64,000 nt of DNA, taken from assembly GCF_009937955.1 (NCBI RefSeq), contig NZ_AP018439.1, positions 4,650,001 through 4,714,000 of the forward strand. Direction: 5' to 3'. This document shows, piece by piece, positions 831-25,147 of this stretch; the stretch's first letter is position 1, and each line of letters begins with the position of its first letter. The notes beneath the pieces were generated by a model. That model was not told where the DNA came from and did no database searches. It saw only the letters and a program-made list of their open reading frames with translations. Made by a program: the position numbers and the translations under genes. Source of the stretch: Undibacterium sp. KW1 (GTDB lineage Bacteria; Pseudomonadota; Gammaproteobacteria; Burkholderiales; Burkholderiaceae_D).

Positions 831-2061
831 CACTTTGCTCGGCAAGTTGAGTGTGTGGATGTGGCAGGCCTGCGGCATTCGCTTCTACCTGCGTCAGGCT
901 TTCTTGATATTTGCGCGGTGTACAACCCAGTTCCCGTTTAAAAACGGCATGCATATACTGTATGGTGGTAAAGCCGCAACTGACTGCAACGTCGGCAATA
1001 CTCGATTGCCCGCTAGCCAGCATGGCTTTTGCTGCCTCCAGCTTGAAATGCAAAATCTCGTCATGGACGCTGCGCCCCAGCTCTTGCCGGAAATAGGATT
1101 CCAGTGAAGAACGGGATATGCCGACATAGTCAGCCACCTGCTCGGTCTTGATACCCTGGCAGGCATATTGGCGGATGAAATGACGTGCCTGCATCACGTG
1201 CGGATGCTTGGGTGTTTCAAAGCGCGAAGAGGTCAGGACATTGATGCCAACCGGCGGCACCAGTATCCTGGTGCTGGCAATGCGGGCGCCGTTCAACATC
1301 TGATGCAAGAGATGGGCGGCAGTGCGCCCCATTTCCTCTGCCCCCTGCATGACAGAACTCAGTGGTATCCGGGTCAGCATGCGCGCCAGCGGATCATTGT
1401 CTATGCCTATCAGGGCGACTTGCTCTGGTACAGCGATACCCGCAATCAAACAGGCCTGCAATAATTGCCTGGCGCGTGCATCTGTTACCGCGATGATACC
1501 TACTGGCTTGGGCAAACCTTCCAGCCATTTGATCAATTGCTCGACCGCTTCATCCCAGGATGGCGCGCTGGTAATCTGGCCGCGATAAATTTCTCCCGTC
1601 AGGCGATCACGTTTCATCAGATCGCAGAAGGCATTTTCACGCTCCTGCGCCCAGCGATTTTCCGGTGCTTCTGGCAAACTGAACAAGGCAAAGCGCGGCA
1701 AGCCTGCCTCAATCAAATGATCATAGGCAAGCTTGATAAGTTTGAAATTGTCCGTCGCCACATAAGGAACACCCTGTGGATAATGATCCTGGTTTTCGTA
1801 GGAACCACCGACAGCCACCACTGGCACCCGGCTATGCGACAAGGCTTCACAAACGACAGGATCGTCAAAGTCGGCAATGATGCCATCGCCCTGCCAGCGT
1901 TCTATCCCATGCAGGCGGGCACGAAAATCTTCTTCCAGAAACAAATCCCAGGACACCCTGGTTGAACTCAGGTAAGAGGCAACCCCGGCAATGATTTCCC
2001 TGTCATAGATTTTGTTTGCATTGAACAATAAGGCTATCCTATGCGAGTTGGGCATCTTCAT
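820..2061 (-). CDS. xylR: Xylose-responsive AraC-family activator XylR
   Basis: D-xylose-sensing transcription activator of 413 aa, close in length to E. coli XylR (392 aa) and alike along its whole length. The N-terminal LacI-like, periplasmic-binding-protein fold (about residues 8-280) shows blocks such as RIALLFNANKIYDREI, WDLFLEEDFRAR, GIIADFDD and GIIAVTDARAR. The C-terminal AraC helix-turn-helix domain (about 290-395) includes VADYVGISRSSLESYFR. It lies downstream of the GH3 gene and overlaps galM. Three matching 36-bp sites upstream of xylX, the GH3 gene and the GH39 gene are its likely operators. Oddity: this regulator type normally controls the isomerase pathway, but here it sits with the oxidative pathway. 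Confidence 0.95.
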   Translation of the reverse strand: MKMPNSHRIALLFNANKIYDREIIAGVASYLSSTRVSWDLFLEEDFRARLHGIERWQGDGIIADFDDPVVCEALSHSRVPVVAVGGSYENQDHYPQGVPYVATDNFKLIKLAYDHLIEAGLPRFALFSLPEAPENRWAQERENAFCDLMKRDRLTGEIYRGQITSAPSWDEAVEQLIKWLEGLPKPVGIIAVTDARARQLLQACLIAGIAVPEQVALIGIDNDPLARMLTRIPLSSVMQGAEEMGRTAAHLLHQMLNGARIASTRILVPPVGINVLTSSRFETPKHPHVMQARHFIRQYACQGIKTEQVADYVGISRSSLESYFRQELGRSVHDEILHFKLEAAKAMLASGQSSIADVAVSCGFTTIQYMHAVFKRELGCTPRKYQESLTQVEANAAGLPHPHTQLAEQSDDE

Positions 2062-2222: not shown

Positions 2223-4643
2223 TCAGACCACCATCAATTTGACTGATTTAAGATCAACACTGCTGGAACCTGCATGTATGGTGAAGCTGCCAGGCTCCAC
2301 AACGCGTTTCATGTCCATGTTATAAAAAGACAAATCTGCTGGTTTGATATCAAAAGACAAAGTGCGTTTTTCGCCCGGATTCAAGCTGACGCGTTTGAAG
2401 GCTTTCAATTCCAGTACTGGCCTGGTGACAGAACTGAAATCATCGCGAATATAGATTTGCACGACTTCATCGCCCTTGACGGCACCGGTATTGCTGACAT
2501 CGACTTCGACTTTGGTGCTATCGCCAACACCCATCGTGGCCCTGGACAAGCGTGGTTCTGAAATACTGAACGAGGTATAGCTAAGGCCAAAACCGAATGG
2601 GTACAAGGGTTTGGTCGATGCATCCAGATAACCACGGCGTGCCGACGGTTTGTAGTTGTAATAAATCGGCAACTGACCGACATTGCGCGCAATCGACACC
2701 GGCAATTTGCCACCTGGGTTGACCCGGCCAAATAAAATGTCCGCCGCTGCAAAGCCGGTTTCCTGCCCCATGTACCAGCCTTCTACCAGCGCGTCTGCGC
2801 GTTCGGCCAGCAGGTTGACGGACAGCGGGCGACCATTCAGCAAGAAGACGACGGTCGGTTTGCCCAGATCAAAAATCGCTTTGGCCAGGTCATTTTGCTG
2901 GCCCATCAAATCCAGGCTGGCACGGTCACCCAGATGGTTATCGGCCCAGGCTTCACGGCTGGTTTGTTCATTGTCGCCCAATACCATGATGATGGTATCG
3001 GCAGATTTGGCCGCCTCTACCGCTTCGGCAATCAGCTTGGCATTCACTGCCGGTGGCGTGAATTTGACTTCATCATGTCCCCAGACATGACCGCCTTCGG
3101 TGATGCGCACACCTTCGGCATAACTGAGTTCAAAGCCCTGTGCCCGGCTTTCCGCCTGCAAGCCTTCGTAGATGGATACCACATGACGCGGGATGTCAGA
3201 ATACCCGCCTATAGGACAATCCTTGGCGTGTGTACCCAGCAACACGACTTTGCCGACCTTCTTGCCGTTCAGCGGCAGCAAGCCCTTGTCATTTTTAAGC
3301 AGGACCACGGAACGGGTGGCAGCTTCACGCGCCAGTGCCACTGCGTCTTGCGTAGCAGTCAGTTTGTCAGCAATGCTGGCATCGACATAGGGGTTTTCAA
3401 ACAGACCAGCCAGGAACTTAAGTTCCAATACCCGGCGCACGCAGCGATTGATTTCTTCTTCAGAAACACGTTTTTCCTTGACCAGTTCTGCCAAGGTGCG
3501 ATAAGCCAGGCCATCCGGTGTTTCTATATCGACACCAGCCTTGATGGCGCGCAGCGCTGCTTCTTTGGGATTGGGCACCAGCTTATGCCTGATCACCAGT
3601 TCATTGATGCCAAAGTAATCGGATACCAGCGCACCTTTAAAGCCCCATTCTTCACGCAAGACCTTGGTCAGCAACCAACGATTCGCATGCGAGGGAACGC
3701 CGCCGATTTCATTATAGGAAGGCATTACGGCACTGATATTGGTTTCACGCACCAGCTTTTCAAAGGGTGGGAAAAATTCTTCGCGCAAGGTACGCTCACT
3801 GACTTCTGCCGGGCCGATGTTGGTGCCGTTTTCTGGCTGGCCGTGGCCCGTCATATGCTTGAGCGTGGCAAATACCTTGTCTTTCGCCAGTTTCTTATCT
3901 TTGCTCATGGGGCCCATGAAGCCGATCACCGCAGCCTTGCCCATTTCGCCGCACAGGTGCGGGTCTTCGCCATAAGTTTCTTCTATGCGGCCCCAGCGCG
4001 GCTCACGTGCCACGTCGACCACAGGTGCCAGCGCAAAATTGGCACCGCGTGCACGCATCTCGCGTGCAGCCACGCTGAAGATTCTGGTCGCCATATCCGG
4101 GTCGAACGAAGACGCCAACCCTATCGCCTGCGGGAAGCAGGTGGCATCACGCGCGACATAGCCATGCAGGGCTTCTTCATGCATGAGCAACGGAATGCCC
4201 AGGCGCGTCTGTTCTACGGCCCATTTTTGCACGGCATTGACATAGGTGGCCGTTTGCAAGGCATTGCGGTTTGGCACCGAACCATCATCACCTGCGCCAG
4301 TAGCCTTGGCTATGCCCTGATGGTCGGACGGACGTGCCATCATCCCCAAACCATGAGGATAGACTGTGCCTGCCTTGGTGACGGAAAAATCGCCATTGGC
4401 TTCCTGTATCAGTTTTTTGTCTTGCCATACGCATTGCATCTGCATGATTTTCTCATCCAGGGTCATACGCCCCAGCAGATCTTCAACACGTGCTGCCAGC
4501 GGTGCAGCAGCATCTTTGTAAATGGGTTTAGATCCAGCTTTTGCGGTAGCCGCCCACCCCAGAGCTGGTGATAAAACTGCCCACCCGGCCAGACCGGTCA
4601 AGCCAGACATGGATGCCAGGAATTGCCTGCGTTGATTACTCAT
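2223..4643 (-). CDS. GH3 beta-xylosidase/beta-glucosidase, Tat-exported
   Basis: Exo-acting glycosidase of 806 aa, probably releasing xylose from xylo-oligosaccharides in the periplasm. The N-terminus MSNQRRQFLASMSGLTG carries a twin-arginine motif followed by a hydrophobic stretch. The GH3 N-terminal domain has KHMTGHGQ and the nucleophile motif VSDYFG (Asp near residue 342). The (alpha/beta) sandwich and a C-terminal fibronectin type III-like domain follow. A Met five codons upstream exists, but its ATG overlaps the GGAGAC ribosome-binding site, so the start at 4643 is preferred. Its own promoter with a XylR-type site lies at 4725-4785, and a terminator isolates it from xylFGH. Xylosidase rather than glucosidase activity is inferred from the neighbours. 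Confidence 0.85.
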   Translation of the reverse strand: MSNQRRQFLASMSGLTGLAGWAVLSPALGWAATAKAGSKPIYKDAAAPLAARVEDLLGRMTLDEKIMQMQCVWQDKKLIQEANGDFSVTKAGTVYPHGLGMMARPSDHQGIAKATGAGDDGSVPNRNALQTATYVNAVQKWAVEQTRLGIPLLMHEEALHGYVARDATCFPQAIGLASSFDPDMATRIFSVAAREMRARGANFALAPVVDVAREPRWGRIEETYGEDPHLCGEMGKAAVIGFMGPMSKDKKLAKDKVFATLKHMTGHGQPENGTNIGPAEVSERTLREEFFPPFEKLVRETNISAVMPSYNEIGGVPSHANRWLLTKVLREEWGFKGALVSDYFGINELVIRHKLVPNPKEAALRAIKAGVDIETPDGLAYRTLAELVKEKRVSEEEINRCVRRVLELKFLAGLFENPYVDASIADKLTATQDAVALAREAATRSVVLLKNDKGLLPLNGKKVGKVVLLGTHAKDCPIGGYSDIPRHVVSIYEGLQAESRAQGFELSYAEGVRITEGGHVWGHDEVKFTPPAVNAKLIAEAVEAAKSADTIIMVLGDNEQTSREAWADNHLGDRASLDLMGQQNDLAKAIFDLGKPTVVFLLNGRPLSVNLLAERADALVEGWYMGQETGFAAADILFGRVNPGGKLPVSIARNVGQLPIYYNYKPSARRGYLDASTKPLYPFGFGLSYTSFSISEPRLSRATMGVGDSTKVEVDVSNTGAVKGDEVVQIYIRDDFSSVTRPVLELKAFKRVSLNPGEKRTLSFDIKPADLSFYNMDMKRVVEPGSFTIHAGSSSVDLKSVKLMVV

Positions 4644-4724
4644 TGAATCTGTCTCCATCTATTTTTTATTTTTAAACCGTCAGGTCATGACACAGGCCAG
4701 CTATTGCCTGATGACTGCCATCCC

Positions 4725-4785
4725 ATCTTGCATGCAAAACCAGGCAGACACAATTATGAAACTCACCAAGCCGCGTCATGATTAC
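4725..4785 (-). promoter_or_regulatory. Putative XylR-activated promoter of the GH3 gene
   Basis: On the minus strand: -35 TTGTGT (4748-4753), 17-base spacer, -10 CAAGAT (4725-4730). A 36-bp operator-like site at 4750-4785 abuts and overlaps the -35 box. Plus-strand parts of the site are ACAATTATGAAACTCACCAA, then a variable centre CCGCG, then TCATGATTAC. The copy at 13747-13782 is identical at 31 of 36 positions, with all the differences in the 5-base centre. An activator site overlapping -35 fits AraC-family class II activation. That XylR is the binding protein is inferred. Confidence 0.75.
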
Positions 4786-4800
4786 AAATGAGATGCGCGC

Positions 4801-4833
4801 AAATAAAAAAAGGCGATCCCTATGAAATCGCCT
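4801..4833 (-). terminator. Rho-independent terminator of xylFGH
   Basis: Stem AGGCGAT (4811-4817) pairs with ATCGCCT (4827-4833) around a 9-base loop. On the minus strand it is followed by a run of seven T, then ATTT. It lies 46 bases beyond the xylH stop and separates the transporter from the GH3 promoter. Confidence 0.85.
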
Positions 4834-4878
4834 GTCAAGGCAAGGAAATCCTTGCCAGTTCTGGAGCGAACTATTCAA

Positions 4879-6021
4879 TCATCTTTTTGCAGAGCGTGTA
4901 CTGACATCCACCCATACTGCCAATGTCAGGATGCAGCCTTTGACTATCATCTGCCAGTAGGTATCCACATCCAGCATGGACATGCCATTGTCCAGACTGG
5001 CCATGACCAGCGCCCCAATCAGGGCACCATATACTGTGCCAGAGCCGCCACGCATGGAGGTGCCGCCAATAAAGCAGGCAGCAATCGCATCCAGCTCGCC
5101 CGAAGTACCGGCAGAAGGTGAGCCAGCCGCCAGCCGTGCGGTATTGATGAGGCCAGCCAGCGCGCACATCAAACCCATGATGCCGAATATCCACAGCTTG
5201 ATGGCATTCACATTGATGCCCGAGAGGCGGGTGGCTTCCATATTGCTGCCCACTGCATAAATCCTGCGGCCAAATACGGTTTGCGTAGTCATGTAGCTGA
5301 AGATGCCCAGCAAGACCAGCAGCAACAGCACAGGCAAGGGGATGCCTTCGTAGCTGTTAAAGGTGATGACAAAGGCCAGCAGCACCGCCGCAATCGCAGC
5401 AAGCTTGATACCATCACGCCACAGCGGTGCGACTTCCAGTCCATGCTGCGCACGCTTGTTACGCTGCTGCCAGGTCAAAAATACAGCCAGCGCGAAAAGA
5501 GCTATTCCCAGCAAGATACCGGTGGTCGCCGACAGGTAACCCTGGCCCAGATACACCATGTCAGCAGACACTGGCGCTACCGTGGTGCCACCTGTCACAC
5601 CCAGCACGATACCGCGATAAGCCAGCATGCCACCCAGGCCAACAATAAAGGATGGTATCTTCATGTAGGCAGTCAGGTAGCCATTGAACAGTCCTATCAG
5701 CAAACCGAAAATCAACACCACCATGAGATTTAATGGCAAAGGTAAATGATGGGTCACATCCAGTACCGCTGCCACACCACCCAGCAAACCCAGCAAGGAA
5801 CCGACAGACAAATCAATCTCGCCAGCGATAATCACCAGCGCCATGCCACAGGCGACGATGCCGGTAATCGACATTTGCCGCATCAGGTTGGACAGATTGC
5901 GCGGTGTAATGAAACCACCTTCGGTTTTCCAGCTGAAGAAAGCCCAGATCAATGCAATGGCAATCAGCAGGGCCAGCATTTTGTATTGTGTGAACAGCTG
6001 TTTGATATTCAGGTTTTTCAT
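4879..6021 (-). CDS. xylH: D-xylose ABC transporter permease XylH
   Basis: Inner-membrane permease (380 aa) of the high-affinity xylose importer, BPD_transp_2 family. Many hydrophobic segments are visible, among them MLALLIAIALIWAFFSW near the N-terminus. The family signature GEIDLSVGSLLGLLGG is near residue 68 and the EAA-like stretch GAPSAGTSGELDAIAACFIGG-type region is near residue 290. It is the last gene of xylF-xylG-xylH, 42 bases after xylG, and is followed by a clear terminator. It works with XylF and XylG. Confidence 0.95.
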   Translation of the reverse strand: MKNLNIKQLFTQYKMLALLIAIALIWAFFSWKTEGGFITPRNLSNLMRQMSITGIVACGMALVIIAGEIDLSVGSLLGLLGGVAAVLDVTHHLPLPLNLMVVLIFGLLIGLFNGYLTAYMKIPSFIVGLGGMLAYRGIVLGVTGGTTVAPVSADMVYLGQGYLSATTGILLGIALFALAVFLTWQQRNKRAQHGLEVAPLWRDGIKLAAIAAVLLAFVITFNSYEGIPLPVLLLLVLLGIFSYMTTQTVFGRRIYAVGSNMEATRLSGINVNAIKLWIFGIMGLMCALAGLINTARLAAGSPSAGTSGELDAIAACFIGGTSMRGGSGTVYGALIGALVMASLDNGMSMLDVDTYWQMIVKGCILTLAVWVDVSTRSAKR

Positions 6022-6063
6022 TTTAATTTTTACCGATAGCGATGAATGGCATCAGATGGGTGA

Positions 6064-7641
6064 TCATGGCACAGGGCTTAATTGACTTGCCTGGTTTGAC
6101 TGGTTGGGCGCTAGTACATGGCTTTGATCCAGCGCCGCCGCCAGCAGGGTTTCCTGCTTCAAATCCTGATTGATGAAGTTGCCGCGCAGCTTGCCCTCGC
6201 CTATCACCAGCACGCGGTCAGAAATACCCAGCACTTCGGCCAGTTCAGACGACACCATGATGATGGACATACCCTGCTTTACCAGTTCAAACATGAGTTT
6301 GTAGATTTCATATTTGGCACCGACATCGACACCGCGTGTCGGCTCATCGAGTATCAAAATCTTGGGTTTGGTCAGCAACATTTTCGACAGCACCGCTTTT
6401 TGCTGGTTACCGCCGGACAGGCTGGTAATAGGCAAAAACGGGCTGGCGGTTTTCAGGGTCATGCTGGCGATTTCTGTACGTATGGTCTTCAGTTCGGCTT
6501 CTTTGTCTATGCGGCTCATGCGGGCAAATTCGTGCAAGACGCTCAGGCTCATGTTCTGGCCCACATCCAGGTCGGGGACGATGCCATGCTGCTTGCGGTC
6601 TTCCGGCACCATGGCCAGGCCAGCGCGTATGGATTTCAACGGGCTGCTGCTGTCAAGCTTGCTGCCATTCAGCCAGACTTCAGCTTCATATTCACCAGGA
6701 TAAGCACCAAACAGGGCCGACACCAGTTCAGTACGGCCAGCGCCAACCAGCCCGGCTATACCCAGAATCTCCCCCTGGCGCAGAGTGAATGAAATGTCAT
6801 CGACACGCTTGCGCTGCGGGTTTTCTGTGTCATAGCAGGTCACATTGCGCGCTTCAAACACCACTTCACCGATGGTATGATCTTGTCTTGGATAAAGCTG
6901 GCTCATTTCACGCCCCACCATCTGGGCGATGATGCGTTCTGCACTCATATCGGCCATGGGTGTCGTGGCAATGTGCTGACCATCGCGTATCACTACGATG
7001 GTGTCGCAAATGGCTTCGACTTCATCGAGCTTGTGCGAGATGTAAATGCAGGTCACGCCCTTGGCTTTCAAGGCGCGGATAATATCCAGCAAGACCGTGA
7101 TTTCTGATGTCGTCAGTGAAGATGAAGGTTCATCCAGTATCAACAGTTTGGCCTGCTTGTTGAGTGCCTTGGCTATCTCTATCAATTGCTGGTGGCCGCC
7201 ACCATAGTTCTTGACCGGCAGTACTACATTGACTTCAGGTATATTCAATTCACGCAATAATTCTTCGGCCCGCTTGTTCATGGCGGCATAGTCCATGCGG
7301 CCACCGGGCAGGGTGATTTCATTCCCCAAAAACAGGTTTTCGGTGACTGACAATTCTGGCACCAGCATCAATTCCTGATGGATGATGATGATGCCCGCCG
7401 ATTCAGTATCGCGGATGGACTGCGCCTTCAAGGGCTTGCCTTCCCACAGGATTTCACCATCCCAACTGCCATGCGGGTAGACACCAGACAGCACCTTCAT
7501 CAGGGTGGATTTGCCAGCGCCGTTTTCACCGCACAGGCCTATGCATTCGCCAGCCCTGACCTTGATGTCGATACCGTTTAAAGCCCTGACACCGCCAAAC
7601 TGTTTGACGATACCCTTCATTTCCAGCAAATATTCAGACAT
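6064..7641 (-). CDS. xylG: D-xylose ABC transporter ATP-binding protein XylG
   Basis: Duplicated ATPase (525 aa) that powers xylose import. The first cassette has Walker [10 protein letters not shown] (about residue 37), an atypical signature YGGGHQQ in place of LSGGQ, and Walker [10 protein letters not shown]. The second has the degenerate Walker [10 protein letters not shown] usual for sugar importers, LSGGNQQK and [14 protein letters not shown]. It aligns with E. coli XylG from its first residues ([10 protein letters not shown] against MPYLLEMKN), so the start is placed at 7641 with a GAGAAA ribosome-binding site, not at the longer possibility at 7680. It lies 85 bases after xylF. Confidence 0.95.
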
Positions 7642-7726
7642 GCTATTTTTCTCGGAAGAACCTGGAACAAGCCAACACAAACAACCAAACCTGGCCCATC
7701 AGGCTTGGTTTTAACTGCATGCTGTA

Positions 7727-8740
7727 TCAGTTGGCAGAAAGCTGTGCCTTGGTATAGAAACCCTCGTCAACCAGCAGGTTCACATTTGCCTTGGTGAGGG
7801 AAACAGGTTTCAAGAGTAAAGTACTGACTTTTTTAAAGCCATTGTCGTATTGGGAATTGTAGGCAGGCTTTTCATTGCGCACCAGTTGCACAGCCAGTTT
7901 GGCAGCTTCAGAAGCGATCAGTTTCAAAGGCTTGTAGACGGTCATGGCCTGGGTACCTGCCATCACGCGCTTGACGGCAGCCAGGTCGGCATCCTGCCCG
8001 GAGACTGGCACCTTGCCACTGAGTTTTTGCGAAGCCAGTGCCTGTATCGCACCGCCAGCAGTGCCATCGTTGGAAGCAACGATGGCATCAATCTTGTTGT
8101 TATTCGCAGTCAGGGCATTTTCAACGATGGACATGGCTTCAGCAGCGCTCCAGTCTTTCACCCATTGTTTGCCGATGACCTTGATATCGCCTTTGTCCAT
8201 CAAGGGCTGCAAGACCTTCATCTGCCCTTCACGCAAGATCTTGGCGTTATTGTCGGTAGGCGCACCACCCAGCAAATAATAGTTGCCTTTCGGTTTCAAT
8301 TGCACCAGGCCTTCGGCCTGCATTTCACCGACCTTGGCATTGTCGAAAGAAATGTAGGCATCAATATCTGCATTCAGGATCAGGCGGTCATAGGACACCA
8401 CCTTGATATTGGCTTTCTTGGCTTCGCGGATGGCGTTATTCAATACCGTGGCGTTGTAGGGTACGATCACTAGTACATCAACGCCACGCGAGATCAGGTT
8501 TTCTATCTGGGAAATCTGGCGCTGTTCACTGGCGTCGGCTGATTGCACAAACACCTTGGCACCGAGTTTTTCTGCTTCTGCACTAAAGAAATCCCTGTCT
8601 CTGACCCAGCGCTCTACCCGCAGGTCATCGATGGAAAAACCGATTTTTGGATTCTTGGCATCAGCGTGGGCACTGCCAGCCATACTGCCACCCAGGGCAA
8701 GCATGACACTGAGGATAGCGATTTTTACTTTGGCATTCAT
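7727..8740 (-). CDS. xylF: D-xylose-binding periplasmic protein XylF
   Basis: Periplasmic xylose receptor (337 aa) of the XylFGH importer. A Sec signal peptide (MNAKVKIAILSVMLALGGS, cleavage after about SAHA) precedes a type I binding-protein fold. Visible landmarks are KIGFSIDDLRVERWVRDRDFF, NLISRGVDVLVIVPYN, DAIVASNDGTAGGAIQAL and VSGQDAD, all typical of XylF. The ribosome-binding site GGAGAC is well placed before the ATG. It is the first gene of the transporter operon. The 133-base gap after xylD leaves room for its own promoter. Confidence 0.96.
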   Translation of the reverse strand: MNAKVKIAILSVMLALGGSMAGSAHADAKNPKIGFSIDDLRVERWVRDRDFFSAEAEKLGAKVFVQSADASEQRQISQIENLISRGVDVLVIVPYNATVLNNAIREAKKANIKVVSYDRLILNADIDAYISFDNAKVGEMQAEGLVQLKPKGNYYLLGGAPTDNNAKILREGQMKVLQPLMDKGDIKVIGKQWVKDWSAAEAMSIVENALTANNNKIDAIVASNDGTAGGAIQALASQKLSGKVPVSGQDADLAAVKRVMAGTQAMTVYKPLKLIASEAAKLAVQLVRNEKPAYNSQYDNGFKKVSTLLLKPVSLTKANVNLLVDEGFYTKAQLSAN

Positions 8741-8873
8741 TTTTTGTCTCCGTTTGGATTAAAGCATGGGTAATGGCATTGCCAATCCCATTTATTATTG
8801 CTTTATGTATTCGTTATTCTGGATACTTTGTTTCTTGTATTGTCACTTATTTAAGCATATTAATTTGAGCATC
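8741..8873. promoter_or_regulatory. xylD-xylF intergenic region with a small palindrome
   Basis: Contains the perfect palindrome TGGCATTGCCA at 8774-8784, 34 bases before the xylF start, in AT-rich DNA. It could be an operator in the leader. The 36-bp XylR-type site was not found here, so xylFGH is either read from the xylX promoter or controlled differently. Confidence 0.35.
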
Positions 8874-10658
8874 TTAGTGATTATGGCGGGGTAAAGTATT
8901 TCCTATGCCTATATACGGTACAGCCAATTCCATGCAGGCCCCGGTTTCCAGTTGCCCGACTGTAGAACGATAAATCTCTTGCCATGGCGTCTGGCTGGCA
9001 GGATATGCCGGCATGCCCTCAGCCTTGCGGCTTTCCAGTTCTTCTGGAGTGATCAACATATCGCAACGCCCGGTGTTCAGGTTGATACGTATGGTGTCGC
9101 CGGTACGGATATAGGCCAGGCCACCGCCGACCGCGCTTTCAGGCGATGCATTCAGGATGGATGGACTGTCCGACGTGCCGGACTGCCTGCCATCACCCAG
9201 AGTAGGAAGGTTCAATATGCCGCGCTTCAACAGCGCATCCGGCGGTTGCATGTTCACCACTTCAGCCGAACCGGGCCAACCCACCGGGCCAGCACCGCGT
9301 ATCACCAGGATGCTGTCTTCATCAATATTCAGCGATGGGTCATTGATACGTGCATGGTAATCACCAGAACCATCAAATACCACGGCCTTGCATTCAAAGA
9401 TGTTTTCCTCTCCGGACTTGCTCAGGTAACGGGCGCGGAATGCGGGTGAGATCACGCTGGTCTTCATGATGGCAAAGTCAAACAGATTACCCTTCAACAC
9501 CATGAAACCGGCTTGTTGTTTCAGCGGTGCGGCATATGGATAGATGACTTCGCGGTCATTCGTCTGCCTGCCGTCCAGGTTGTCGTGCATGGTCTTGCCG
9601 GTCACGGTAAGACGGTCAGCGCGCAGTTTTCCTGCTTGCAGCAGTTCCCACATGATGGCGGGTACACCGCCGGCGCGGTGAAAGCGCTCGCCCAGGAACT
9701 TGCCCGCCGGCTGCATGTTCAAGATCAGCGGGATGTCATGCCCATGCGCCATCCAGTCATCTGAATGCAACTCGACATGAGCATGTCTGGCCATGGCCAT
9801 GATATGTGGCTGAGCATTGGTGGAACCACCAATTGCGGCATTTACCACGATGGCATCGAGGAAGGCATCACGTGTCAAAATACTGGATGGACGGATATCC
9901 TGATACGCCATCTCGACAATGCGACGGCCTGTTTCATAGGCGATCTGGCCGCGTTCACGGTAAGGCGCGGGAATGGCCGAACAGCCAGTCAGCGACATGC
10001 CCAGGGCTTCAGCCAGGGCGTTCATGGTGGATGCCGTGCCCATGGTATTGCAGTGACCTGCCGACGGTGCTGATGCCGCAGCTATCTGCAAGAATTTTTC
10101 TTCATCGATATCGCCTGCCGCCAGTTGCCTGCGGCCCTTCCAGATGGCAGCACCAGAACCTACCAGTTCACCATCCATCCAGCCATCCAGCATGGGGCCA
10201 CCAGACAAGACAATCGCCGGGATATCCACCGTTGATGCAGCCATGATCTGGGCTGGCGTAGTCTTGTCACAACCCGTAGTTAACACCACGGCGTCGATAG
10301 GATAACCATGCAAAATCTCAACCAGGCCCATATACGCCAGGTTGCGGTCTATTGCTGCGGTTGGGCGGCGGCAGTTTTCAAAAATCGGGTGCAACGGGAA
10401 TTCCATCGCAATACCACCGGCATCCCGGATGCCATCGCGTACCCGCTTCGCCAGCTCCAGATGGATGCGGTTGCATGGGCTGATATCACTGCCGCTCTGT
10501 GCAATACCTATGATGGGGCGACCAGAACGCAGTTCGTCAGGGGTGATGCCATAGTTCATGAAGCGCTCCAGATACAGCGCTGTCATGTCGATATGATCGG
10601 GATTATCAAACCAGTCTTGCGAGCGGAAGCGGCGAGCCTTGTTATCGTCAAACATCAT
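8874..10658 (-). CDS. xylD: D-xylonate dehydratase (IlvD/Edd family)
   Basis: Dehydrates D-xylonate to 2-keto-3-deoxy-D-xylonate in the cytoplasm, step three of the oxidative xylose route. At 594 aa it matches Caulobacter XylD (591 aa) almost from end to end. The [2Fe-2S]-ligand cysteines are present: C62 (SPCNRIH), C130 (TTGCDKTTPA) and C203 (GHCNTMGTAS). Other blocks are IVLSGGPMLDG and GDGRQSGTSDSPSILN. The ATG at 10658 overlaps the xylC stop by 4 bases (ATGA), indicating coupling. It is the last gene of xylXBCD. L-arabinonate is a possible alternative substrate for this family; the neighbours favour xylonate. Confidence 0.93.
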   Translation of the reverse strand: MMFDDNKARRFRSQDWFDNPDHIDMTALYLERFMNYGITPDELRSGRPIIGIAQSGSDISPCNRIHLELAKRVRDGIRDAGGIAMEFPLHPIFENCRRPTAAIDRNLAYMGLVEILHGYPIDAVVLTTGCDKTTPAQIMAASTVDIPAIVLSGGPMLDGWMDGELVGSGAAIWKGRRQLAAGDIDEEKFLQIAAASAPSAGHCNTMGTASTMNALAEALGMSLTGCSAIPAPYRERGQIAYETGRRIVEMAYQDIRPSSILTRDAFLDAIVVNAAIGGSTNAQPHIMAMARHAHVELHSDDWMAHGHDIPLILNMQPAGKFLGERFHRAGGVPAIMWELLQAGKLRADRLTVTGKTMHDNLDGRQTNDREVIYPYAAPLKQQAGFMVLKGNLFDFAIMKTSVISPAFRARYLSKSGEENIFECKAVVFDGSGDYHARINDPSLNIDEDSILVIRGAGPVGWPGSAEVVNMQPPDALLKRGILNLPTLGDGRQSGTSDSPSILNASPESAVGGGLAYIRTGDTIRINLNTGRCDMLITPEELESRKAEGMPAYPASQTPWQEIYRSTVGQLETGACMELAVPYIGIGNTLPRHNH

Positions 10659-11536
10659 GATGCAGACTCACTGAACTGATATTGCGGCAGACCGGGCACG
10701 TCCACACGGAAAGAAAACAGACCGCCCGCCAATGGCTGCTGTTCACGTTTTTCTGCCGACATGCCTTTCCAGGCCGTGGTCACAAAGACGGTACGCAAAT
10801 CATAGCCACCAAAACATACCTTGGTGATATTCGAACAGGGGAAATTGATGACCTGGACGATTTCTCCAGCGGGGGAATATCGCTCCACACGATTGCCAGC
10901 AAAAATCGCCACCCACAGAAAACCTTCTGCATCGACCACCGTGCCATCCGGGTGGCCACCGGTGCTGATGTCGGCAAACACACGCTTGCCGGACAAGCTG
11001 CCATCAGGTGTCACATCAAAGGCATAAATCTTTTTGCGTAGGGTATCGGTGTGATAAAACACTTTGCCGTCAGGGCTCATGCAGGGGCCATTGGTGATAA
11101 CGTAATCATGATCCCTGGCCTGCAAATTGGCCAAAGTATTAAGGCGATACAGCGAACCGCTAGGCGCTTTTTCACCATCATCCATGGAACCAAACCACAG
11201 GCAACCCTGGCTATCAATATAGCCGTCATTAAGGCGATTGTCGGGTTGATCAGTTTCCACTTCCAGCATGCTGCTGAAGCTACCGGTGCTGCTGGAAAAG
11301 CGCACCAGCTTTCCCGGCAAGCCACAGATGAAATTGCCGCTTTCCCCCTTGATGGGCAGGATAAAGCCGATCTGGTCTGGCGCATGCCAGCTCTGGCGAG
11401 CCGAACCATCTTCTGCACAGCGATGGATTTTATGGCTTTTGATATCCACGAAGTAAAGCGCGCCCGCGTGCCATACCGGGCCTTCGCCCAGATGCGTAGC
11501 CACTTCCCAAATGCAGTGAGACTGATCCAATATCAT
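10655..11536 (-). CDS. xylC: Xylono-1,4-lactonase, SMP-30/gluconolactonase family
   Basis: Hydrolyses D-xylono-lactone to D-xylonate, step two of the pathway. The 293-aa beta-propeller has the SMP-30 landmarks LGEGPVWH (metal-ligand glutamate), NDGYIDSQGCLWFGSM and HPDGTVVDAEGFLWVA. A Met four codons upstream (11548) is open. The ATG at 11536 makes a 4-base ATGA overlap with the xylB stop, like the other junctions of this operon, and is preferred. Identification as a xylonolactonase rests on family plus position between xylB and xylD. Confidence 0.9.
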   Translation of the reverse strand: MILDQSHCIWEVATHLGEGPVWHAGALYFVDIKSHKIHRCAEDGSARQSWHAPDQIGFILPIKGESGNFICGLPGKLVRFSSSTGSFSSMLEVETDQPDNRLNDGYIDSQGCLWFGSMDDGEKAPSGSLYRLNTLANLQARDHDYVITNGPCMSPDGKVFYHTDTLRKKIYAFDVTPDGSLSGKRVFADISTGGHPDGTVVDAEGFLWVAIFAGNRVERYSPAGEIVQVINFPCSNITKVCFGGYDLRTVFVTTAWKGMSAEKREQQPLAGGLFSFRVDVPGLPQYQFSESAS

Positions 11537-12387
11537 GCGCCGTACCATCCTGCGTCCACAAAATAATCACGTCCCGAACAACGCGCGGCGTTGTCAGAGG
11601 CCAAAAACAAAGTCAGGGCAGCGACGTCTTCGGTTTCCACCCTTTCGTGCAGGCATTGGGCGGCCAGTATCTGCGCTTCTTCTTCCGGCGTGTGCCACAG
11701 TGCCATCTGGCGTGGGGTACGTACTGAACCGGGGATGATGCAGTTGACACGTATGCCGTCTGGCCCCAGATCACGGGCCAGGCCACGGGTCAGGCCTTCT
11801 ATCGCTGCCTTGGCTGTCATATACAGGCTGAGCTTGCTCAGGGCAAGATGCCAGGAGATGGAACCAAAGTTAAGGATAACACCACCGCCCATGGCTTTCA
11901 TACCTGGTGCCACGGCCTGGGCACAAAAAAACTGGTGACGCAAATTCACGGCAAAACTGTCGTCCCAATAAGTGGGCGTCACATTCTTCACATCATGTCT
12001 GTCGTCATTGGCGGCATTATTGATCAAAATCTCGACAGCACCATATTCACTTTCTATATGGGCCAATACTTTGGCCAGCGCATCCAGGTCGGTCAGGTCA
12101 CAATGCATGAATCTTGGCGGTCTGGCAGACTGATGGAGACTTTTTTCCAGCGCCTGCGAAGCCTGGTCGGCGATATCCAGGAAAAAAACCTGCGCGCCCT
12201 GCTTGCAAAAGGCATCTACGATGGCAGCGCCTATGCCGGTACCGCCACCGGTTACTACTACTCTCTTCCCGGCCAGATTCGGGTAACTTGCATAAATCAT
12301 TGGTTTTCTTTCTTGGTCCGCATAGAGACCAGGGTTCCCTGCCTCTGACGACGCCTTGCTTATGCTATTACTTGCGCTATTACTCAT
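11533..12387 (-). CDS. xylB: NAD(P)-dependent D-xylose 1-dehydrogenase (SDR)
   Basis: Oxidises D-xylose to D-xylonolactone, the entry step. It is a classical short-chain dehydrogenase with the cofactor motif TGGGTGIG, the NNAANDDRHD region, catalytic SISWHLALSKLSLYMTAKA (Ser, Tyr, Lys) and C-terminal DAGWYG. It is closely similar to Caulobacter XylB (248 aa). The reading from 12387 gives 284 aa with a 29-residue low-complexity N-terminal extension. That start shares an ATGA overlap with the xylX stop. The alternative start MIYASYPNLAGKRVVV at 12300 gives the usual family length but a weaker ribosome-binding site. Which start is used is undecided. Confidence 0.92.
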   Translation of the reverse strand: MSNSASNSISKASSEAGNPGLYADQERKPMIYASYPNLAGKRVVVTGGGTGIGAAIVDAFCKQGAQVFFLDIADQASQALEKSLHQSARPPRFMHCDLTDLDALAKVLAHIESEYGAVEILINNAANDDRHDVKNVTPTYWDDSFAVNLRHQFFCAQAVAPGMKAMGGGVILNFGSISWHLALSKLSLYMTAKAAIEGLTRGLARDLGPDGIRVNCIIPGSVRTPRQMALWHTPEEEAQILAAQCLHERVETEDVAALTLFLASDNAARCSGRDYFVDAGWYGA

Positions 12388-13604
12388 ACTTGTGCAGCAC
12401 CTGAGGCAGCGTGCTCACTCATTCCATAAGCCAGGCCACGCGCGGCCAGGTTGCGGTACAGGGCACTGACTCCAAAATCCCAGCGAGCGATCGCATTACT
12501 ATACTTGACATGGTTCATCAAAGCGCCCAGTGCCGGACAGCCGATTGTGACCCGGTCACCTATATGGTGGGTAAAGCCACTGCCTGCCGCATCCCTGTCC
12601 TCGATGGGTGAAAACATGGTGCCCAAGAACAGCATGAAACCGTCAGGGTACTGGTGGGTATTGCCACAAACCTGGTTAACCAAGTCCAGCGGGTCACGGC
12701 TGATTTCACGCATCATGCTGATACCATCGAGTCTGAAATCGTCATCCAGACCTTCTATCAGCAATCTGACTTCGGCCTGGCGTATGGTATCGAGCGTGAA
12801 TGTGTCATCAAACAGGCGGATGAAAGGGCCTATCGCACATGAGCCGTTATTGTCTTTTGCCTTGCCCAGCAACAAGGCACTGCGCCCTTCTATGTCACGC
12901 AGGTTGACATCATTGCCCAGAGTGGCCCCCACTATTTGAGCGCGGCTGTTGACGGCCAGCACGATTTCTGGCTCGGGGTTATTCCAGCTGGAGTCAGGAT
13001 GTATGCCTACATCAGCACCAAAACCGACTGCCGACATGGCTTGAGACTTGGTAAATACTTCGGCATCGGGGCCTATGCCAACTTCCATATATTGCGACCA
13101 GGCACCACGGCTGATCAGATCCTGCTTCAATTTTTCAGCTGTGTCAGAACCCGGACGTATGCGCGACAAATCCGAACCTATACTGGCTTGCATGGCGGCA
13201 CGCAGGCTGTCCGCCGCCGAGGCGTCACCACCAGCCTGTTCTTCGATAACGCGCTCCAGCAAGCTGACCGCAAAGGTGACGCCACAGGCCTTGATCGCCT
13301 GCAGATCACAGGGAGCAAGCAAATAGGGAGCTTCACTGCCAGCATTTCGGTTGAGGGAGTGCTCAATCAGAGCCTGTACGTCCCCCATGGACTCGCCACC
13401 TGCGTTCAGCGCGAAAGCCAGTGGATTTTCTTTTTCCAGCAAATCAGTCACGGTTTGCACCTGTGCCGTAATGTCAAACACTTGCCCCTGCCGCACGACG
13501 ACCACACATGGCCCGTTGATCTTGCCAGCACGCCATACGCGCCCCAGCAGCACCGCTTGTTGAAACTGATCCGGCAAATAGGATATGGCGGATGTATTAT
13601 TCAT
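12384..13604 (-). CDS. xylX: 2-keto-3-deoxy-D-xylonate dehydratase, FAH family
   Basis: Converts 2-keto-3-deoxy-D-xylonate to alpha-ketoglutarate semialdehyde, the step that commits to the Weimberg rather than the Dahms (aldolase) route. The 406-aa protein resembles Caulobacter XylX throughout. Metal-site blocks are EVGIGPDAEVFTK, WNNPEPEIVLAV, GNDVNLRDIEGRSALLLGKAKDNN split over about residues 220-250, and QYPDGFMLFLGTMFSP. The ATG at 13604 has GGGAGA at a good distance, so the longer reading to 13637 is dropped. It is the first gene of xylXBCD and has its own XylR-type promoter. Confidence 0.93.
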   Translation of the reverse strand: MNNTSAISYLPDQFQQAVLLGRVWRAGKINGPCVVVVRQGQVFDITAQVQTVTDLLEKENPLAFALNAGGESMGDVQALIEHSLNRNAGSEAPYLLAPCDLQAIKACGVTFAVSLLERVIEEQAGGDASAADSLRAAMQASIGSDLSRIRPGSDTAEKLKQDLISRGAWSQYMEVGIGPDAEVFTKSQAMSAVGFGADVGIHPDSSWNNPEPEIVLAVNSRAQIVGATLGNDVNLRDIEGRSALLLGKAKDNNGSCAIGPFIRLFDDTFTLDTIRQAEVRLLIEGLDDDFRLDGISMMREISRDPLDLVNQVCGNTHQYPDGFMLFLGTMFSPIEDRDAAGSGFTHHIGDRVTIGCPALGALMNHVKYSNAIARWDFGVSALYRNLAARGLAYGMSEHAASGAAQV

Positions 13605-13721
13605 GATCTTCTCCCGTATAGCGATTTTTTTGTTCACCTGACTCTTCGCTTCAGAGTTTCCTGTCGTTAATGCCCGACAGGCAGCAGGTGTCCCGAACTA
13701 ATTCAGGTATCTTGCCTAGGT

Positions 13722-13782
13722 ATACTCGCTGGTATCAGGCCTATCCACAATTATGAAACTCACCAAGATGAATCATGATTAC
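13722..13782 (-). promoter_or_regulatory. Putative XylR-activated promoter of xylXBCD
   Basis: Minus strand: -35 TTGTGG (13745-13750), 17 bases, weak -10 GAGTAT (13722-13727). A 36-bp site occupies 13747-13782; its plus-strand parts are ACAATTATGAAACTCACCAA, centre GATGAA, then TCATGATTAC. It has the same geometry as the sites at 4750-4785 and 16623-16658. The gap to the xylX start is 118 bases, leaving a long leader. Confidence 0.75.
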
Positions 13783-13817
13783 GTTCAAGACAGGCGCTGA
13801 CAGCTGCGAGTGCGGGC

Positions 13818-14903
13818 TTATTTCCCTGTCAAAGCCTCAAGTACGCCATCAAAAGCAGGTTTGCTGGTGTAATCATCATTGAACAACAGCGGCCACTCTG
13901 TGCGTTTGTGGAACTTGCTGAGCCAGGTCTCGCCATCAACCACGCCCCAGAAGGTGATGCCGCCGCGCAGTGCTGGTGGCACTTCTTCCAGATAAGCAGC
14001 GACGATAGCCTTGTAACGCGCTTTTTGGATAGCCGCAGCGGCAGGGGTCAAAGACTTGAGATCATTGCGCTGATTCATCGCTACATCCAGCTCGGAAATG
14101 CGTACTTTCAAGCCGCGCTTTACCACAGCCTTGAAAGATTTCCTGATCTGTGCAATGGCAGGATAGTCACTGTTCACATGCATTTGAAAACCTATGCCAT
14201 GGACAGGTATATGCCGCACCTGGAAGTCATCGATCATGCCCAGCATGAAATCCAGCTTGGATTGCACGGCCTCGGTATTGAAATCGTTGTAATACAGGTC
14301 TGCTGCAGGGTCGGCAGCATGCGCTGCGACAAAGGCTTTTTCTATATACGATTTACCCATTTTTTGATAGAACAGCGACTTCCTGTAGCCTGCGGGGACG
14401 TTTTCGTCTATGACCTCATTGGCGACATCCCAGCTGGCAACCCGCCCGGCAAAATGCTTGCATATCTGCGTCACATGATGGGCCAGCATGGCATCCCAGT
14501 CGCCAGCATAGTTTTTCATCCATGCTGGCACCTGATAGTCTGGATGCCATACCAGGGCATGGCCATGCAAGATCATGTCGTGCTCCTTGGCGTAATTGGC
14601 GAGGGCATCTGCATCATCATAGCTGAACTGGTTTTCTGCTGGATGCAGGTAACGCATCTTCATGATGTTGGCGGCAACCAGGCTATTAAATTGCTGGTTG
14701 ATCAGTGCCTGCTGATCGGTTTTCTTGAAAAGGCTGCGCTTCTCGTCACCAGCGCTGACTGCCACCCCGATGGGAAAGGCCGCCAGATTTTTCAATGCAA
14801 CGGTAGCAGGGGCTTTATCATTGCTCTCAGCAGCACCGGCAGTCTCAATAAGTACGACGGCCAGGCTGGTAAGCAATAAACCGCAGAATGTCTTTTTATG
14901 CAT
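13818..14903 (-). CDS. GH10 endo-1,4-beta-xylanase, secreted
   Basis: Cleaves internal beta-1,4 bonds of xylan by a retaining mechanism. The 361-aa protein starts with a Sec signal peptide (MHKKTFCGLLLTSLAVVLIE, cleavage near TAGAAES). A single GH10 barrel follows with HGHALVWH, the acid/base Glu163 in WDVANEV and the nucleophile Glu271 in ISELDVAM. No binding module is attached. It lies 85 bases after the GH39 gene and probably shares its transcript. It is expected to act in the periplasm or outside, giving short xylo-oligosaccharides to the GH39 and GH3 enzymes. Confidence 0.96.
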   Translation of the reverse strand: MHKKTFCGLLLTSLAVVLIETAGAAESNDKAPATVALKNLAAFPIGVAVSAGDEKRSLFKKTDQQALINQQFNSLVAANIMKMRYLHPAENQFSYDDADALANYAKEHDMILHGHALVWHPDYQVPAWMKNYAGDWDAMLAHHVTQICKHFAGRVASWDVANEVIDENVPAGYRKSLFYQKMGKSYIEKAFVAAHAADPAADLYYNDFNTEAVQSKLDFMLGMIDDFQVRHIPVHGIGFQMHVNSDYPAIAQIRKSFKAVVKRGLKVRISELDVAMNQRNDLKSLTPAAAAIQKARYKAIVAAYLEEVPPALRGGITFWGVVDGETWLSKFHKRTEWPLLFNDDYTSKPAFDGVLEALTGK

Positions 14904-14988
14904 ATTTTTTCAAGAAGATTAAGAAATCTGGCTTGCCACAATCACAGCAATCCTCATGCTGCCTGGCATCTATTGTGAGCATTTTTTA

Positions 14989-16569
14989 TCAACGCTGTGC
15001 CGCTGTCAGCTTAAGCAGTATCACATCGTTTTCACGCATGGTGACTTTGATATAAGCCTTGCCTGAGCGGCTGACCTGGAATTTGCGTAACTCAGCTTTA
15101 TCCTGTGTCAGGCTTTGCAGCGTCTGCAATTGCTCTGCGCTGAGTGACTTCGGCGAACTCATTTCCAGATAGGCGGTGTGCGCATCATTGGCCAGGTAAC
15201 CAGTCCGATAAATTTGTGCCGTGTATTTACCCGGCTTCAGGCCAGTCAGTTGCAACTCCAGCGGGGCAGTCTCAACAGACGGCAATACCTTGGTGTAAAA
15301 CGCACGATTGCTCTTGTCCTGCACAGGCTGGCGATAATCCCAGGCCAGCACTTGCAGTGTCTTGCCGCTGCGGCTTACATAGCTCTGTGCGTCTTGTTTA
15401 CCTTGTATGGAGAGTATTTCATCGCCCAACTGGTGCAGGTATTTATAGGCAAAAAATGCTGGCTTGCGTAGACCCTGAGGATTGAGCAAGCCAAAGCCAC
15501 CTTCAAATGGTGCTGTTGGTGGCCCCGGCTCTTCAAACAGATCAGTGTAAGTCCAGTAACTCATGCCTTGCAATTGCCCTTCACTGGATTTCAGTTTGGT
15601 GAGGATATAGGCGGCGCTGATATAAGAATCATGCACAGGGTCACGCGGCGCATAGCTGCTACTCCATTCAGTAAAAAACAGTGGCAATTCAGGTTGGGCG
15701 GAAGCCTTGATCTGGGCTCTTACCTTGTGTACATCAGCCACGATGGCATGCGGTGAAGTGGAGAGTTTGGTATCACTGACACCATGTTCGTCAATGAAAC
15801 CGCCATCCACACCATAGGTATGGGTAGTAATGAAATCCACCGGGGCACCCGTTTTTTGCGTGAATGCCAAAAACTCCGACACCCAGGCAGCACCAGCAGT
15901 AGCTGGCCCACCCACCCTGAGTTGCGGGTCTATCGCCTTGATGGCACGGGCAGTTCTTTCATATAAATCGAAATAGGCGGCCTGATCTGCGCCTTCCCAG
16001 AAGATGGCAAGATTAGGCTCATTCCAGACTTCAAAATACCAGCTCCGGACTTCTTCTTTCCCATAACGCGCCTCCAGGTGGCGCGCAAAGGCATCCACCA
16101 GGGCGGTCCACTTTACCGGGTCGGGGTGTGAGATATTTCCCTTCCAGTAAAAGATGGTTTTCTCAGAACTTCTCATTGCATGCGGCGTGAAGCCCAGTTC
16201 CACAAAGGGTTTGATGCCCATGCGCAACAAGCGATCGTACAGTATATCTATCTTGCTCCAGTCATACACCGGTTTGCCGTCGTGCTCAGTGTAGGTTTGC
16301 AAGATATCATGGAAAATGCCATGAAAGCGCAAATAACGAAAACCCAGTTCATCCTTGATGATCTGCAACTGGGCAAGACTGTCTTCCCTGATCAGGGTAC
16401 CGGGATAATCTGAACCTATGGATAAATCAGCAAAGTGATCACGCGGCACGCCGGGAGCATTGACATCAATGCTGATACGACGTGGCGCGGCGGCATGTGA
16501 GACGTTGAACAGGCTGAGCAGGCTGAAAAAGAACGGCATTGCCAGGACGAACGACAGTGGTTTGAACAT
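14989..16569 (-). CDS. GH39 beta-xylosidase, secreted
   Basis: Removes xylose from the non-reducing end of xylo-oligosaccharides. The 526-aa protein has a signal peptide (MFKPLSFVLAMPFFFSLLSL, cleavage near SHAA). A GH39 barrel follows with acid/base Glu184 in FEVWNEPNL and nucleophile Glu301 in FFTEWSSSY. A C-terminal beta domain completes it. The open frame extends to a TTG at 16626, but that codon lies in the -35 box of the mapped promoter, while the ATG at 16569 has AAAGG in front. It forms a pair with the GH10 gene. Confidence 0.92.
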   Translation of the reverse strand: MFKPLSFVLAMPFFFSLLSLFNVSHAAAPRRISIDVNAPGVPRDHFADLSIGSDYPGTLIREDSLAQLQIIKDELGFRYLRFHGIFHDILQTYTEHDGKPVYDWSKIDILYDRLLRMGIKPFVELGFTPHAMRSSEKTIFYWKGNISHPDPVKWTALVDAFARHLEARYGKEEVRSWYFEVWNEPNLAIFWEGADQAAYFDLYERTARAIKAIDPQLRVGGPATAGAAWVSEFLAFTQKTGAPVDFITTHTYGVDGGFIDEHGVSDTKLSTSPHAIVADVHKVRAQIKASAQPELPLFFTEWSSSYAPRDPVHDSYISAAYILTKLKSSEGQLQGMSYWTYTDLFEEPGPPTAPFEGGFGLLNPQGLRKPAFFAYKYLHQLGDEILSIQGKQDAQSYVSRSGKTLQVLAWDYRQPVQDKSNRAFYTKVLPSVETAPLELQLTGLKPGKYTAQIYRTGYLANDAHTAYLEMSSPKSLSAEQLQTLQSLTQDKAELRKFQVSRSGKAYIKVTMRENDVILLKLTAAQR

Positions 16570-16597
16570 GAAGGCAGCCTTTGGAATGTGAGCTTGC

Positions 16598-16658
16598 ATT
16601 CTGCGGCCAGCTGCCAGCCTGTGCAATTATGAAAATCGCTAGCCAGCAGAACGATAAC
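16598..16658 (-). promoter_or_regulatory. Putative XylR-activated promoter of the GH39-GH10 genes
   Basis: Minus strand: -35 TTGCAC (16621-16626), exactly 17 bases, -10 CAGAAT (16598-16603). The operator-like site at 16623-16658 keeps CAATTATGAAA and GATAAC in register and matches the 4750 site at about 24 of 36 positions. The expected start of transcription, near 16590, gives a leader of about 20 bases to the ATG at 16569. Confidence 0.65.
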
Positions 16659-22003: not shown

Positions 22004-22070
22004 AGATATGTGTGAGGAATTTATTTGGGCAAGCATCTGCTGGCGCGCGCCAGCAGATGCCTGTCATTCG

Positions 22071-23384: not shown

Positions 23385-23584
23385 ATATCGTCTCCAGTTA
23401 TTATAAATGCGTATGTCTGTGAATCTGTGACATGACGCTAACCGGAGCACCTCGCGTACTCCACGCCGTTTAGACGAGGGCCATGAAAAATGATGGCCGA
23501 GGTCGCTCGGTTGTATCTGTTTTATTGCTTTGTGAACAGCCTATCTAATTTTCGAGTTCACCTGATTCATCTATGAAAAAGACT

Positions 23585-24910: not shown

Positions 24911-25147
24911 AAAAAGACTAACAGTTGAAAACGAAATACACCATCAGCAGATTTGCTGATGGGAAGAATCATTACTCGATTTGGTGATTTTCACAAATTT
25001 TTGTTGTTGTAGAGTTGCAGACTCGCACTGCTAACCAGTTATACACAGCTCAGTTATGCACAGATTTGTTAGCCACCAAATCCAAAAAATCCTGTCTCTC
25101 TTAAATTAAGGAATCTCTGATTATTGAGCTTTACATAATTGATGACA

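Follow-up and report, generated by a model that had tools for sequence, protein, structure and literature searches.

How are genes for cutting xylan and genes for the uptake and oxidation of xylose controlled together when they are distributed over several transcription units? This question is raised by a 64,000-nucleotide stretch (C1:4650001-4714000 of 6,692,966 bases; hereafter, the window) of the genome of Undibacterium sp. KW1, a soil or freshwater type of bacterium, in which such genes lie on the minus strand together with the gene for an E. coli-type XylR regulator. An earlier note on this DNA proposed that three similar sites define a XylR regulon. The comparisons described here point to a repeated switch that controls xylan-cutting enzymes, xylose uptake, and the oxidative xylose pathway and that is most likely bound by XylR. 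In particular, the sites are, with high probability, operators of XylR, which is predicted to bind two half-sites overlapping the -35 element and to activate sigma-70 promoters. The regulon is well defined, and the earlier finding proves right and stronger than claimed; the class of mechanism is a familiar one.

Repeated sites in the window and in the genome

The 36-mers at 4750-4785, 13747-13782, and 16623-16658 all contain CAATTATGAAA, as read directly from the window, and end in GATTAC (sites 1 and 2) or GATAAC (site 3). The three sites are therefore present where the earlier note had placed them, with the common CAATTATGAAA and the GAT[TA]AC end that it had described. Its count of 31/36 identical bases for two of them is to be corrected to 32/36 (sites 1 and 2), while its statement that the differences are confined to the 5-base centre holds for all four. 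Site 3 agrees with site 1 at 24/36 bases and with site 2 at 23/36.

The sites were scored with a matrix from which the 7 Undibacterium sites had been removed, so that 30 of 37 collected sites remained (the other-genera matrix). Operator 1 (4751..4785, minus strand), located 5' of GH3-xylR-galM, reaches 49.9 bits; operator 2 (13748..13782, minus strand), 5' of xylXBCD-xylFGH, reaches 47.6 bits; and the weaker operator 3 (16624..16658, minus strand), 5' of GH39-GH10, reaches 30.2 bits. The corresponding genome-wide chance expectations are 2e-11, 5e-10, and 2e-4, respectively, for a matrix that is partly dependent, as its sites were first collected by likeness to sites 1-3. Together with a damaged site at 24965-24999 (32.9 bits; see below), these are the top four places in the window, and the next place scores 6.8 bits.

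In the genome scan that had been proposed as a check, the motif proved not to be scattered: at no more than three mismatches it occurs four times only, always on one strand and within one 17-kb stretch, and the reversed pattern is not found at all. As the search pattern was built from sites 1-3, the fourth site alone is out of sample. It lies at C1:4649667-4649701, 300-334 bp before the window start and 144 bp before a GH115 frame, shows 30/36 identity with sites 1 and 2, and carries TTGCAC, a 17-bp spacer, and CATTGT. Thus, the genes assigned earlier to the three sites (GH3, the xylX operon, and GH39-GH10) are retained, but the regulon is larger and includes GH115 behind the fourth site as well as xylR and galM behind GH3.

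A looser core pattern is found at 24 places in the genome, compared with 2 for the reversed control. The four places with 0 mismatches are operators 1, 2, and 4 and the 24965 site; operator 3 is not among the 24. Sixteen of the 20 weak places (2-3 mismatches) were rescored, and none exceeds 15.4 bits; our guess is that the surplus of weak places over the control stems from codon bias.

Co-occurrence of the motif with XylR

In 294 family genomes, XylR was called at an E value of at most 1e-60 and the motif at no more than three mismatches. XylR is present in 95 genomes and the motif in 83: both occur in 70, XylR only in 25, the motif only in 13, and neither in 186. The motif is therefore found in 70/95 genomes with XylR versus 13/199 without it, and its rarity in relatives lacking xylR answers another check proposed with the earlier note: 12 of these 13 genomes contain one match each, of 3-22 bits (the thirteenth, G159, is described below). 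In total, 129 of 143 motif matches fall in genomes with XylR, and the reversed-pattern columns total 8. Where both XylR and the motif are present, the best match exceeds 26 bits in 69/70 genomes.

A motif that tracked xylX instead of XylR was also considered. Among the 72 genomes with a close XylX (at least 540 bits), the motif occurs in 56/60 with XylR and in 0/12 without it; tracking of xylX is ruled out by the latter count, and the motif goes with the regulator rather than with the pathway.

Moreover, named genomes were scanned for XylR by the protein alone, and the best 80 of 545 confirmed loci were analysed. The top site reaches at least 10 bits in 77/80 of these loci, as compared with 5.6 bits at most in reversed sequences; in the three loci without a site (L178, L179, and L193), xylR lies within 650 bp of the contig end. 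The sites include those of Paraburkholderia, Caballeronia, Ralstonia, Silvimonas, and Pseudomonas, and in two Pseudomonas loci (L196 and L197), the site lies between the isomerase gene and the gene for a XylR that is 71-72% identical. Many of the named Oxalobacteraceae loci probably come from genomes that also belong to the family set; L176-L209 contain none of the sequences on which the matrix was trained. Outside the genome of the window, the nearest of these 80 XylR loci (the best of 545) belongs to Undibacterium hunanense CY18W (94%). XylR was found in 2/26 sampled genomes of the window's genus, and the locus is thus accessory there.

The co-occurrence in 294 genomes, the 0/12 count, and the sites in 77/80 named loci support XylR as the probable binder, which the earlier note had suggested. 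The full-length relation to E. coli XylR and the related XutR system of Pseudomonas (both described below) point in the same direction. Another regulator might bind the motif, for example, the LacI-family protein encoded in the same xylan locus (L005:4514-5668, approx. 6.3 kb before the first base of the window, near GH115). Its control of these genes is plausible, as a related LacI (66-70% identical) is encoded just upstream of the xylX cluster in the XylR-less loci L120 and L121. However, neither of these two stretches contains a site of at least 18 bits, none of the 12 genomes with XylX and without XylR carries the motif at no more than three mismatches, and a 35-bp bipartite site overlapping the -35 element is unlike the operator of a LacI repressor. 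Binding by such a regulator is accordingly quite improbable.

Promoter geometry

The earlier note had also described each site as ending over a -35 TTG followed, at exactly 17 bases, by a -10-like hexamer, and CAAGAT, GAGTAT, and CAGAAT are indeed found in this arrangement on the minus strand. Predicted promoter 1 (4725..4753) combines -35 TTGTGT (4753-4748) with -10 CAAGAT (4730-4725), a geometry that is kept in relatives; predicted promoter 2 (13722..13750) combines TTGTGG (13750-13745) with GAGTAT (13727-13722); and predicted promoter 3 (16598..16626) combines TTGCAC (16626-16621) with CAGAAT (16603-16598), each with a 17-bp spacer. If predicted promoter 3 is correct, translation of GH39 is expected to begin with the ATG at 16569 (MFKPL...), which, judging by the reading frame, is probably its true start.

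Of the non-redundant sites scoring at least 26 bits, 40/42 end in TTG. Exactly 17 bp on, a hexamer with A at base 2 and T at base 6 is present in 36/40 of the TTG-ending sites, compared with 0-8/40 at other offsets. The preferred -10 form is GCA-R-AAT, with C in place of T at the first position, as expected if an activator is needed. In the non-redundant promoters of the named XylR loci, the A..T hexamer occurs at 17 bp in 46/67 and at 16, 17, or 18 bp in 67/67, whereas three control offsets give 14/67 and offset 20 alone gives 17/67. The hexamer lies at 17 bp in 36/44 promoters of L130-L175, and in L176-L209 it lies at 17 bp in 10/23 and at 18 bp in 9/23; thus, the exact 17-bp spacing is typical of Oxalobacteraceae and not universal. 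With an activator site overlapping the -35 element and a -10 element at near-fixed spacing, the promoters have, by sequence, the features of class II sigma-70 promoters, and the predicted -10 positions are supported by their conservation.

The same overlap with the -35 element and near-fixed distance to the -10 element would be expected if the motif were a promoter or 5' leader element kept without a specific regulator, e.g., a strong sigma-70 variant. Yet the majority of the conserved bases are located 5' of the -35 element, outside the predicted transcript, and the presence of the motif follows XylR rather than the pathway genes, which makes this explanation highly improbable. It is equally hard to credit that the sites resemble each other in this genome through recent duplication of one promoter in the cluster rather than through selection, because, although sites 1, 2, and 4 agree at 30-32/36 bases, their flanking sequences differ and sites of distant genera show conservation in the same columns.

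Half-sites and the proposed mechanism of XylR action

XylR of the window (820..2061, minus strand) consists of a periplasmic-binding domain and an AraC-type helix-turn-helix domain (PF22177, PF13377, PF12833, and PF00165, all above cut-off). It is related over its full length to the solved E. coli XylR (4fe4/4fe7; residues 5-389 of 4fe4, E 4.4e-118), with 48% identity. The genes xylF and xylG lie 4-7 kb from xylR, so that the regulator gene has xylose uptake genes in its neighbourhood.

Columns 6-18 of 62 diverse sites have the sequence AYGAAATTCACCA, which is followed at an offset of 22 bp by AYGATTNT in columns 28-35. Such a pattern would fit two tandem AraC-type half-sites, of which the better one is placed beside the -35 element. 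According to the mechanism proposed here, D-xylose would bind the periplasmic-binding-protein domain of XylR, and the AraC-type domains of the XylR dimer would then bind both half-sites, AYGAAATTCACCA and, at an offset of 22 bp, AYGATTNT. The stronger half-site would abut the -35 TTG of a sigma-70 promoter, the -10 element of which, with C as its usual first base (CANAAT type), would be weak; given this weakness, XylR is proposed to recruit RNA polymerase as a class II activator. The promoters of xylXBCD-xylFGH, GH3-xylR-galM, GH39-GH10, and, just outside the window, GH115, all four within 17 kb, would thus be switched together. With xylR placed after GH3 under operator 1, XylR would probably increase its own expression.

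Several findings weigh against XylR acting in this way at these sites. First, 25/95 genomes with XylR lack the motif at no more than three mismatches. Stretches from 9 of these 25 genomes were examined, and 6/9 (L081-L085 and L127) contain a 27-37-bit site near xylR. In G106 and G210, sites of 20-35 bits are present in the XylR stretch and none near xylX; in G125, which encodes a 42% relative with a stop, the examined stretch contains no site; and two XylR paralogues of G222 (L109 and L110) have no nearby site of at least 8 bits, so that the specificity of these diverged proteins may differ. Moreover, one of the 70 genomes with both XylR and the motif, G163, has only a 17-bit match, which resembles a protein start or coding sequence. 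Because the genomes and loci are related, p-values are indicative only. Second, the orientation of the half-sites is at issue: the direct-repeat offset of 22 is visible in the 62 sites, but three low-information inverted pairs score higher, and an inverted repeat scored best in the 37-site set. Third, the E. coli xylA-xylF region is weakly alike, as 6, 14, 37, and 35 of 200 shuffles were as good in four comparisons; the best partial match there is GAATGATGAAACT, a weak one (up to 37/200 shuffles as good).

The genome G222 contains six XylR-like genes, and the two diverged ones noted above are 72% and 58% identical.

Genes of the proposed regulon

Gene names were assigned from Pfam, NCBIfam, and solved relatives. 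On the minus strand, the order is GH39-GH10 behind operator 3, xylX-B-C-D-F-G-H behind operator 2, GH3-xylR-galM behind operator 1, and GH115 behind the fourth operator; an enolase-superfamily gene and a GDSL gene come after GH115. Operon membership is judged from gene order and spacing and is in this sense predicted.

All genes described below are on the minus strand. The xylX gene (12384..13637) encodes an FAH-type protein (9kkt, 417 bits; 2q18, 58 bits; PF01557 just below cut-off), presumably a 2-keto-3-deoxy-pentonate dehydratase. It is followed by xylB for D-xylose 1-dehydrogenase (11533..12387; the NF053674 equivalog above cut-off), xylC for an SMP-30/gluconolactonase-like lactonase (10655..11548; PF08450), and xylD for an IlvD/Edd-family dehydratase (8874..10658; NF009560; 5oyn, 1047 bits), which is probably a xylonate dehydratase. 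Thus, a Weimberg-type oxidative xylose set of a dehydrogenase, a lactonase, and two dehydratases is encoded in one operon. A gene for 2-oxoglutarate semialdehyde dehydrogenase, which catalyses the last Weimberg step, was not noticed in the operon and was not searched for elsewhere in the genome. Xylose uptake is represented by xylF for the xylose-binding protein (7727..8740; TIGR02634 above cut-off), xylG for the xylose ABC transporter ATPase (6064..7680; TIGR02633 above cut-off), and a gene for a xylH-like permease (4879..6021; PF02653, with NCBIfam permease models below their cut-offs). A terminator-like hairpin (4811..4833, minus strand) is located 3' of xylH, just before operator 1; 3/200 shuffles fold as well.

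The hydrolases of the window comprise the GH3 enzyme (2223..4658; PF00933, PF01915, and PF14310), the GH10 xylanase-family enzyme (13818..14903; PF00331), and the GH39 enzyme (frame 14989..16626; PF01229). Beside the xylan cluster, after a TonB receptor, window positions 19628-23450 contain pectinesterase-like and polygalacturonase-like genes, judging by the look of their translations; no XylR site of at least 10 bits is present in this segment.

Possible exchange of pathway and regulator

A homologue of a protein of this cluster is encoded downstream of the site in 47 of the 62 site contexts, which come from related genomes and are not independent. These homologues are XylF (17), XylX (14), XylR (6), GH3 (4), GH115 (2), XylB (2), GH39 (1), and GalM (1); among them, one GH3 has 34% and GalM 40% identity. 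Ten proteins scanned from the other 15 contexts comprise two xylose isomerase-like proteins, one GH31, two TonB receptors, two GDSL esterases, one tryptophan-halogenase-like protein, one alpha/beta hydrolase, and one DUF4214 protein. For the L008 isomerase, the match to solved xylose isomerases reaches 496 bits.

Of the 80 named XylR loci, with flanks of 10 kb or less, 28 contain an isomerase, 25 contain XylX (22 of them with XylD), 5 contain XylD alone, and 22 contain none of these. Isomerase and XylX do not occur together in any of the 80 loci within these flanks.

Conversely, 5 of the 12 loci with XylX and without XylR were examined for neighbouring regulators. In L120 and L121, the protein encoded upstream of the xylX cluster is the LacI that is 66-70% like that of the window organism, and a regulator swap is a possible explanation. 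Two of the other examined loci have a different LacI, and one showed none. When LacI-type palindromes were compared among five stretches with xylX and without XylR, a shared one was present in L122 and L123 only: the near-perfect palindrome TTGAAACCGGTTTCAA is located at L122:11908 and L123:11881, near a divergent LacI gene beside xylX, and is perhaps the operator of the adjoining LacI.

Possible traces of losses from the regulon are found in two settings. In the window, a fifth, probably decayed operator (24965..24999, assigned to the minus strand and facing the plus strand) retains 32.9 bits with the other-genera matrix; its -35 end is altered, and there is no A..T hexamer 17 bp downstream. 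It is located within a stretch that has no second copy in the genome and is flanked by two recurring stretches, which, judging from adjoining frames, look like insertion sequences. Window positions 24913-25120 thus form a single-copy sliver with a strong but damaged XylR-type operator. When a gene of origin was sought for the sliver by BLAST against the collected loci, the operator part alone matched, besides self copies and a 14-base chance match; the site is probably a relic of a regulon member whose gene was lost. The second setting is G159, which has two 41-bit sites of intact appearance and no XylR at E 1e-10, and in which stretch L107 (G159:C4) contains xylX and galM as diverged or broken pieces only; regulon decay or poor assembly would account for operators without a detectable xylR.

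The chances are about even that XylR and its operator form a fixed chassis in which the pathway is exchanged: the isomerase route would be served in, e.g., Pseudomonas and Paraburkholderia, and the oxidative route together with xylan enzymes in, e.g., Undibacterium, Janthinobacterium, and Duganella. Under this proposal, the xylX cluster would conversely have come under a LacI-type regulator in some XylR-less genomes, and the damaged operators (24965 and G159) would record regulon losses. The locus would then offer a natural example of an operator and a regulator that are retained as the pathway behind them is replaced, and of a pathway that can be handed over to a different regulator.

Relation to known xylose regulators

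A literature search that did not extend to subscription papers or the RegPrecise database found no description of this operator in Betaproteobacteria. With these sites, a concrete candidate operator becomes available for a xylose sensor that is widespread in Betaproteobacteria and Pseudomonas, and a single regulon is suggested to cover both the breakdown of xylan and the oxidative use of xylose in this organism. The operator may be of use in predicting xylan loci and in building xylose-inducible promoters.

In Caulobacter and Xanthomonas, oxidative xylose genes are under the control of a XylR of LacI type. These systems share with the window the kind of target genes. However, LacI proteins are an unrelated repressor class with short palindromic operators, whereas xylR of the window is of AraC type. 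A Xanthomonas-type box, TGGTANCGNTANCA, is absent from the window at no more than one mismatch and was found in 2/209 loci.

For E. coli XylR, a DNA-looping model was reportedly put forward by Ni in 2013. The E. coli XylR regulon (xylAB and xylFGH) is similar to that of the window in its full-length related regulator (48% identical) and xylFGH-type transporter genes, and two XylR sites per promoter are present in E. coli; according to an excerpt of PMC7567609, xylA and xylF have two sites each, with a separation of three bases in the case of xylF. In contrast to E. coli, the oxidative xylose pathway and xylan hydrolases here replace the isomerase and kinase, and the operator sequence is weakly alike.

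Higher xylR expression is stated to speed growth on xylose in Burkholderia sacchari (excerpt of PMC5952831). XutR of Pseudomonas fluorescens SBW25 is described, in an excerpt of PMC8433446 citing Liu 2015, as a dimeric regulator that binds better in the presence of xylose and that activates xutA, the gene for the isomerase. A possible parallel to this system is offered by Pseudomonas loci L196 and L197, which carry the operator described here between the isomerase gene and the gene for a 71-72% identical XylR; the two systems differ in that the isomerase route is used in the XutR system and the oxidative route is used here.

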